A DNA stretch of 32,863 nt from an uncultured Bacilli bacterium (GTDB taxonomy: Bacteria; Bacillota_I; Bacilli_A; RF39; UBA660): NCBI GenBank assembly GCA_947598395.1, contig CANQFG010000007.1, forward strand, positions 1 through 32,863, read 5' to 3'. Position 1 is the stretch's first letter. Every line of letters starts with the position of its first letter. Both the position numbers and the translations under genes were made by a program. Of this stretch, positions 1,013-31,784 are shown piece after piece. The notes beneath the pieces were generated by a model, which saw nothing but the letters and a program-made list of their open reading frames with translations, ran no database searches and had not been told where the DNA came from.

Positions 1013-1041
1013 TTGCGCCTACCTTTCGGCGCTTTTATAAT
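1013..1041 (+). promoter_or_regulatory. Candidate sigma-A promoter overlapping the terminator
   Basis: TTGCGC (1013-1018), 17-bp spacer, TATAAT (1036-1041). Predicted start falls on the G9 tract at 1048. Confidence 0.5.
1015..1036 (+). terminator. Intrinsic terminator after the FGE-like CDS
   Basis: GCGCC-TACCTTTC-GGCGC followed by TTTT, 10 nt after the stop codon. Confidence 0.6.
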
Positions 1042-1047
1042 GCAACT

Positions 1048-1056
1048 GGGGGGGGG
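1048..1056 (+). repeat. G9 homopolymer at predicted transcription start
   Basis: Direct reading: caact-GGGGGGGGG-tgcgat. Confidence 0.9.
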
Positions 1057-1093
1057 TGCGATACATTGAAGATAGAGAAAAAATAGGAGCAAA

Positions 1094-20852: not shown

Positions 20853-21910
20853 ATGGAAAAAAAGAAAAAATATAATTTAAGCTTGATCCGCTTTTTAGCA
20901 ATGAATATGATTATTTTTTGCCATATATTTGAATGGATAGGGTACGATTTAAGCAATAGTAAAACTATAGGAATAGTTGGAAATTTTTTAGCAGTTGGTG
21001 TTCAAATTTTTTTACTATTATCAGGATATTTATATGGTAAAAGGGATGATTTATTTGAAAAAGATGGAAAAATAAAATTTGTTTTAAATAATTTTAAAAA
21101 AATTTTATTTGATTATTACATTTATGCCTTTATTGTCATATTTCCGATTTATTGCTTAAGTTCTGAAATTTCTGGAATAACAATATTAAAAAATATTTTT
21201 AGACTTTTAACTTTTTCTGGTTTTGGTTTTGGTTTTCGCCACTTGTGGTTTATTCAATATATTTTATTTTGCTACGTATTAACACCATTTTTTTACGATT
21301 TGAAGGTTTATTTAAAAAATAACATAAAATCTAAATATATATTAGTGTGCATATGTGGCATAGCTTTGTTAGAAATTTTTAGTTGTGCGTATAATCCGTA
21401 TTTTAATACTAAATTTATTAATTGTTATATTATTGGCTTTTTTATATTTCCATATTTAAAAGATTTAATAAAAAATAATAATTTAAATTTGGTCATTTCA
21501 CAATTAGGAATGTTGGTTATATTTACGATTTTTTGGTATATTTTAAGATTTAGTATTATGCCTAATACACATAGTGTATACTTATCATATATTATTGGAT
21601 ATGGGATAAGCTATAGTTGTATATTCCAAGCTGTTTCCTTGTTTGGTTTATATTCTATTCTCGGGGGGGGGTGGTTAATAAAAAAATATTAAAAAAAATA
21701 TTGGATTTTTCTGACAAATACTCGTATGATATATACATTTGTCACATGTTATTTGTCAAGGGAATTTTAAGTTTGATAAATATTACGCCGTATTTTGCTA
21801 TTAATATTTTTTTAGCTCTTTTAGCAATTGTTATTTCAGGAATTATTTTAAAAACTATTAGTAGCTTTGTACAAAGCAAAATAAATAATTTAAGAATTGC
21901 GATTATTTAG
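20853..21910 (+). CDS. Acyltransferase family 3 membrane protein, frame-disrupted at a G9 tract (ORFs 20853..21692 and 21617..21910)
   Basis: N-terminal ORF: LSLIRFLAMNMIIFCHI...GVQIFLLLSGYLYGK...FGFRHLWFIQYILFCYVLTPFF. The other frame carries the missing C-terminus FSDKYSYDIYICHMLFVKG. Frames exchange at GGGGGGGGG 21663-21671; +1 G (or -2) restores one ORF. Confidence 0.85.
21663..21671 (+). repeat. G9 homopolymer inside acyltransferase gene
   Basis: attctc-GGGGGGGGG-tggtta, read directly. Confidence 0.92.
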
Positions 21911-30652: not shown

Positions 30653-31784
30653 ATGAGTTGTGAAAATAGTGAAAGAAAAATTAGAAATTCTAATATAGAA
30701 TTGTTACGGATAATATCAACATTTTTGATTATTGCTTTTCATATGAGACGATATAATTATATTTGGTCTAGTAAGCCTATTGGCTATATTTTTGGTACAA
30801 TTTTTTCAAGCTGGGGAGTATTAGGTGTTGATATTTTTTTAATTATTAGTGCATATTTTTTATCTGAATCAAAATTTCATATAAAAAAAGTAATTAATAT
30901 TGTTTTTCAAACTTTTAGTTGGATTATTTTATTTACTTGTGTATATGCCGTTTATAGTTATATAAAACTGGGGGGGGGTCAATTATAATATTTTTCAATT
31001 TTTGTTAGAAGGATTTTTCCAACCATTTTTTTGCAACTTTTATTGGTATATTACAGCTTATTTTTTTATGTTGTTATTATCTCCATTTTTAAATAAGTTA
31101 ATAAATAAACTTAATAAACGTAATTTTCAAAAAGTATTAGTAATTTGTTTATTTATTCCAATTTATGCTCAGTATAGTGAATATAATCCGGTTTGTGACG
31201 TTGTTACTTTTTCATATGTATATTTATTAATTAGTTATATAAAAAAATATGGTAGTAAATTAGTCGATAAATTATCGAATAAACCTTGGTATATTTTAAC
31301 TATAATTATAGTTGTTGCTTCAATATTTATATCCAATGCGCTTTTAGATAAAAGTGTACCTTTAAAGGTTATCAGTTATTTAATATCTCAAACTTTTGGA
31401 AAAATTATTCGTCACTCCAATATTATGCTTATAACTTCTATTTTGATTTTTTTCAATGTTCTTAATAAGAAGCCAAGTTATAATAAAAAAATAAATAAAA
31501 TTTCATCATATTGTTTGGGAATATATCTTTTTCACGAAAATGCTTTTTTTAATATGCCACTTGTTCCATGGGCGTTTGTTAAAGCCTTTAATTATTGGGG
31601 CTTTATGAGTATAGATGTGTTTTTCCCTATATCATTTCTTTCTATTGTTATTCTTGTTTTTATATTTGGTGCAATTATAGAAGCTATCAGGAATTATATT
31701 ATTCAAAAGCCTTTTATGAGCTGGGTTTCTAAAAAATATGAAAACAACATGAATTTAATAGATAATTGGTTTAATAGCTTTTAA
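30653..31784 (+). CDS. Acyltransferase family 3 membrane protein, frame-disrupted at a G9 tract (ORFs 30653..30988 and 31002..31784)
   Basis: NSNIELLRIISTFLIIAFHMRRYN...GVLGVDIFLIISAYFLSESKF, then frame change at GGGGGGGGG 30970-30978. The other frame continues FYWYITAYFFMLLLSPFLNKLINKL...YCLGIYLFHENAF. -1 G (or +2) restores one ORF. Confidence 0.87.
30970..30978 (+). repeat. G9 homopolymer inside acyltransferase gene
   Basis: aaaact-GGGGGGGGG-tcaatt, read directly. Confidence 0.92.

Follow-up and report, generated by a model that had tools for sequence, protein, structure and literature searches.

A putative phase-variable promoter element with a poly-G spacer upstream of secreted-protein genes in an uncultured RF39 bacterium

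Repeat-bearing promoters of surface-gene families

The vlp genes of Mycoplasma hyorhinis form a small lipoprotein family. Every member carries a poly-A tract in its promoter and is switched by insertions and deletions in this tract (PMC10502178). The system described here likewise consists of a gene family with homopolymeric promoter tracts, but it comprises about 60 dispersed genes and uses poly-G, with poly-A in sister species. In Mycoplasma gallisepticum, each promoter of the large vlhA paralog family contains a variable (GAA)n repeat between conserved flanks, which is located ~40 nt upstream of the start and is considered active only at 12 units (PMC6258824). Here, too, the promoters of a family bear a repeat, but vlhA employs a trinucleotide instead of a homopolymer.

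Poly-G tracts are known from two other groups. In Treponema pallidum, the tp0126 promoter has a poly-G between -35 and -10 with an optimum of 17 nt, and the tpr genes (tprL, tprE/G/J) have length-dependent poly-G promoters, with 7 to 11 Gs found in vivo for tprL (PMC7864442). Poly-G in surface-gene promoters is shared with the present case, but the Treponema genes are separate loci, whereas here one conserved element precedes about 60 paralogs. In Neisseria meningitidis, a G run between -35 and -10 of porA sets transcription through the spacing of both boxes (PMC7864442). This is the G-run spacer proposed below, but in a single gene of a proteobacterium. The mechanism is already known in kind; the gene number, the shared element and the base change in sister species make the present system a variant. 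Literature searches for RF39 combined with phase variation and for retroelements combined with homopolymeric tracts found nothing.

The G9 tract, its genomic copies and its relatives

The window, i.e. the whole analysed stretch of 32,863 nucleotides, contains a G9 tract between two genes for surface proteins. The original prediction had assigned to this tract a promoter with TTGCGC (1013-1018), a 17-nt spacer and TATAAT (1036-1041), transcription beginning at or near 1048, the first G. All these sequence features are present, and the downstream gene indeed encodes a secreted-type glycine-rich protein, whose N-terminus is hydrophobic and which contains an ALK/LTK glycine-rich domain (PF12810, E 4e-42). 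NCBIfam provided no name for the two proteins. The features of the region, including the promoter boxes proposed here, are:

1-1005, + strand: 3' part of the upstream gene, which is another paralog of this surface-protein set; its C-terminus GFRLVLAEENKHPTTE is a motif found in paralogs
1015-1036, + strand: terminator-like hairpin and T run of the upstream gene, variable between element copies
1040-1045, + strand: ATGCAA, proposed weak -35 box with a putative role (ATGCAA in 36, CTGCAA in 14 of 58 copies)
1048-1056, + strand: G9 tract, the putative length-variable portion of the promoter spacer (1046-1061, 16 nt)
1062-1067, + strand: TACATT, proposed -10 box within the near-invariant block TGCGATACATT (1057-1067)
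1073-1075, + strand: predicted transcription start, placed by position only, ~7 nt past the -10 box
1085-1089, + strand: AGGAG ribosome-binding site upstream of the ATG at 1094, kept in most element copies
1094-2227, + strand: secreted glycine-rich protein, 377 aa, with the N-terminus MNMKKVILAFILGLSLSTISVVALSLCNAKDI common to group-2 paralogs

Three G9 runs occur in the window, whereas dinucleotide shuffles predict 0.01; a count of three was not reached in any of 100 shuffles. G7 and G8 runs are absent from the window. The tract at 1048-1056 is located between the stop at 1005 and the ATG at 1094, outside any reading frame of the switched gene. Translational (frameshift) phase variation fails for this intergenic tract. 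Likewise dropped was a short ORF that traverses the tract, since its frame at G9 is closed by a stop ahead of the gene.

The genome of 1.30 Mb (84 contigs) comprises about 65 runs of at least eight Gs, most of which represent one element, GCAAYT-G(5-10)-TGCRATACAWT, followed by a spaced AGGAG and an ATG. Tract counts were taken from pattern searches and individual sequence stretches of the genome. The core pattern GCRAYT-Gn-TGCRATA was found in 58 full copies and the reversed control pattern in none. One locus is counted twice among the 58 (contigs C18 and C32), and five further contigs end inside an element copy, one of them at the same locus as a listed copy, so that about 60 element loci result. 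In the 58 copies, G9 (33) and G8 (22) prevail, and G5, G7 and G10 occur once each. Within each contig carrying several G runs, all are on one strand. A scan of the wider genome contig collection with the core pattern yielded at least 115 matches, and a G run above 6 was present in none of the 80 checked.

The copies are nearly always located directly upstream of secreted-protein paralogs. The group-1 leader TGCAATACAATAGAG... precedes MKKGIIIALILMSIGFAAV-type proteins, the group-2 leader TGCGATACATTGAAG..., to which the window's copy belongs, MNMKKVILAFILGLSLS...CNAKDI-type proteins. The downstream genes mostly have long intact frames; some of the proteins end in glycine-rich domains, others in a motif resembling retroelement-diversified proteins. 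Upstream of the core, the sequence differs between copies and mostly represents the terminator of the previous gene, leaving no conserved sequence beyond the core that could bear the promoter. Two more G runs have other locations. A G8 run (contig C8:5231-5238) occupies the Shine-Dalgarno position (GGGGGGGG-taatt-ATG) of a ~290-aa frame, where tract length may possibly tune translation. A G9 run (contig C2:21723-21731) falls within the coding sequence for the N-terminus of a further secreted-protein paralog; a neighbouring paralog has no such run.

Eight other genomes of the genus do not have the exact element, but the gene family was matched in all eight; in 57 genomes from other genera of the family no match to the gene family was found at E 1e-8. 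The comparison is therefore limited to related elements in sister species. In the sister-species genome G008, relatives of the window's gene group are preceded by TTGTAC-A(4-16)-TGC-TATATT; TGTAC-A(4-18)-TGR-TACAAT or -TATAAT is located before other-group members in G007. Other-group relatives in G008 and G002 have TTGATTTTTTC-G9/10-TATGAT and TTGCAAAAC-G8-TATGTT, the G8-G10 run directly abutting the TATGAT or TATGTT. Homopolymers of differing base thus occupy the same place before related genes, followed by a -10-like box. Such tracts are not universal: many family members in G007, G008 and G003 lack them. At the observed lengths, the spacings of the sister-species elements amount to 11, 14-15 and 7-21 nt, often far from 17 nt.

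Position of the promoter relative to the tract

The copies allow the boxes on both sides of the tract to be compared. Five bases past the tract, the hexamer is TACAAT in 38 and TACATT in 17 of the 58 copies, with three single variants, and it keeps A at position 2 and T at position 6 in every copy. The originally predicted TATAAT is exact in three of 58. As TACAWT downstream is conserved and TATAAT upstream is not, the tract would lie within the promoter spacer and upstream of +1, and the start proposed at the first G is not borne out. Most likely, the tract separates -35 and -10, and initiation would occur near 1074 rather than at the G run. The proposed -35, (A/C)TGCAA, ends two bases before the tract, and its spacing to the -10 is 15 nt in 22, 16 nt in 33 and 17 nt in one of the 58 copies. 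Given this -35, the spacing is around the 17-nt optimum. The -35 matches TTGACA in about three of six positions; the mean match at the 16-nt spacer is 2.5.

These data make it probable that the element is a phase-variable promoter operating by spacer slippage across about 60 secreted-protein genes. RNA polymerase would bind the weak (A/C)TGCAA just upstream of the G run, with TACAAT/TACATT five bases downstream of the run as -10 box. Replication slippage would add or remove Gs, yielding -35/-10 spacings of 15 nt (G8), 16 nt (G9) or 17 nt (G10), and each of the ~60 genes would toggle on its own between a low and a high transcription level. Which hexamer is the -35, where transcription starts, which lengths would correspond to ON and that switching takes place in the cell are all deduced from the sequence.

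The original promoter, in which a change in G number would act via altered initiation, reiterative G addition or the 5' UTR, is quite improbable. Its 17-nt spacing is real in the window; TTGCGC, TTGCAC or TTGTGC is present at the same place in 11 of 19 group-2 copies, AAAAAT-like hexamers provide A2 and T6 at its -10 place in 41 of 58 copies, and some G007 genes have TATAAT after a terminator-like T run. However, most group-2 copies have TTTGCT, TTTACT, TTTAGT or similar hexamers instead of TATAAT, and the AAAAAT of many group-1 copies, although retaining A2 and T6, is not accompanied by a conserved -35. Over all copies, the hexamer 17 nt upstream averages 2.1 matches out of six versus 1.8 at neighbouring positions. 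Furthermore, TTGCGC in group-2 copies is the left arm of the upstream gene's hairpin, and the poly-A elements of G007 and G008 place the -10 after the tract.

The original prediction also placed this promoter within the terminator of the upstream gene. A weak terminator-like hairpin of 5 bp (1015-1032) exists, its T run extends to TATAAT, and both TTGCGC and part of TATAAT derive from them. TTGCGC matches TTGACA in three of six positions only, and a sigma-70 promoter scan of the window did not list the TTGCGC/TATAAT pair, so this promoter is weaker than implied. A perfect TTGACA-N17-TATAAT is located at 2230-2258 upstream of the ORF at 2282 and is a good reference for a housekeeping promoter of this genome. 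Reiterative transcription of the pyrG type needs a G run at +1. A G run near the promoter is common to both cases, but its location at +1 is unsupported by the other element copies. With the tract placed upstream of +1, reiterative G addition and 5'-UTR effects are both unlikely. What stands of the original prediction is tuning of a surface gene by tract length, for which ~60 copies, coexisting lengths and sister-species homologues speak; the transcription start and the slippage mechanism linked to it are not supported.

The weak -35 leaves room for an activator or another sigma factor. Such a dedicated protein would read the core, with GCAACT as -35 or binding site and the G run setting spacing or helical phase. 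GCAACT and TGCRATACA are near-invariant beyond the needs of a housekeeping promoter, and the genome has eight sigma-70 region-2 matches, one of them a short ECF-like protein of 163 aa. On the other hand, the G007 elements with TGR-TATAAT or TGR-TACAAT fit the extended -10 of the housekeeping sigma factor, and a dedicated reader is unlikely. Still less can be said for a G run that acts post-transcriptionally in the 5' UTR, e.g. by being targeted by a C-rich small RNA, which is reportedly the case for H. pylori tlpB and RepG. G8 to G10 in common to ~60 genes would suit one trans-acting RNA, but a conserved promoter upstream of the tract is missing, the upstream terminator abuts the tract in most copies, and sister species carry poly-A instead. 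An Rfam search of 900-1300 yielded no family above the curated threshold and no credible match. A role for such an RNA is highly improbable.

Tract lengths, in-frame tracts and a retroelement

Two contig pairs provide information on length variation at single loci. C18 and C32 are identical over 69 nt to the left and to the right of the tract, and the sole difference between them is G8 versus G9. C52 ends on 69 nt plus G8; the same 77-mer opens C45, where a ninth G comes next. The upstream flanks of both pairs were found in no other copy compared. Both would be the expected trace of a k=77 assembly graph when one locus has two lengths, k being derived from the overlap length. The eighth G is the exact end point of five contigs (0.04 expected), and 16 tracts are no more than 150 nt away from a contig end (1.2 expected, p 5e-13), but breaks near tracts may also stem from repeats between paralogs or from library slippage. 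Since such repeats break contigs, only the C18/C32 and C45/C52 pairs are taken as locus-specific evidence. They suggest that G8 and G9 coexist at single loci, with library slippage as an alternative source; the lengths were read from one assembly, and the pairs concern loci other than the window's copy. In G005, contigs C15 and C151 end in or just after G22 and G12 runs following similar sequence, which is likely a sequencing or assembly artefact.

That the tracts as a whole are assembly or sequencing artefacts, or unstable by-products without effect, is barely credible. The accumulation of contig ends at tracts and the ability of library slippage to generate length variants would agree with it, but element and position are kept in 58 copies, homopolymers of another base are located there in sister species, and two acyltransferase genes, a usual type of phase-variation target, are split by G9 at other places in the window. 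These runs, at 21663-21671 and 30970-30978, are inside acyltransferase-3 genes (20853-21692 and 30653-30988), i.e. within a reading frame, as frameshift switching demands. In both cases, the frame ends shortly after the G9, and the remainder of the protein is encoded in a different frame. Both genes consequently look switched off in the assembly.

The genome has one reverse transcriptase match (RVT_1), a 304-aa open frame that runs to the contig start and contains the motifs GIPIGNYTSQ and YMDD. It adjoins a bAvd gene (PF22296, E 7e-20) and a 158-nt template repeat, the whole locus being at contig C11:1-2198 on the reverse strand. Among the variable repeats, the nearest is the C-terminus of a gene on C11 that itself carries a G9 element in its promoter. 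Nine differences separate this target from the template, and all nine fall on template adenines. Judged by this sequence signature, reverse transcriptase, bAvd and template repeat are a diversity-generating retroelement that targets at least one element-bearing gene. About 25 other C-termini resemble the template, with pooled mismatches of 46% at A, 35% at C and ~16% at G and T. As these are not confined to A, only some of the ~25 are likely to be recent targets. The upstream gene in the window resembles the template repeat at 832-974 with 64% identity, and the differences are not adenine-specific.

Tentatively, two layers of variation may act on the same genes: ~60 independently slipping poly-G promoters would choose among the paralogs, and the retroelement would rewrite the C-termini of part of them. 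The exchange of A for G at a kept promoter place between sister species would mean selection on spacer instability. If the retroelement targets the same genes, the system would be suited for testing phase variation and sequence variation in combination. In addition, near-identical flanks with differing tract lengths and another base in sister species offer a ready comparison of spacer length and composition with promoter strength. The bacterium probably turns dozens of its surface proteins ON and OFF in a random manner. If so, about 60 genes of a 1.3-Mb genome would be governed by independent stochastic promoters, in a lineage for which the literature searched reports no such system, and a single population could display very many surface states.
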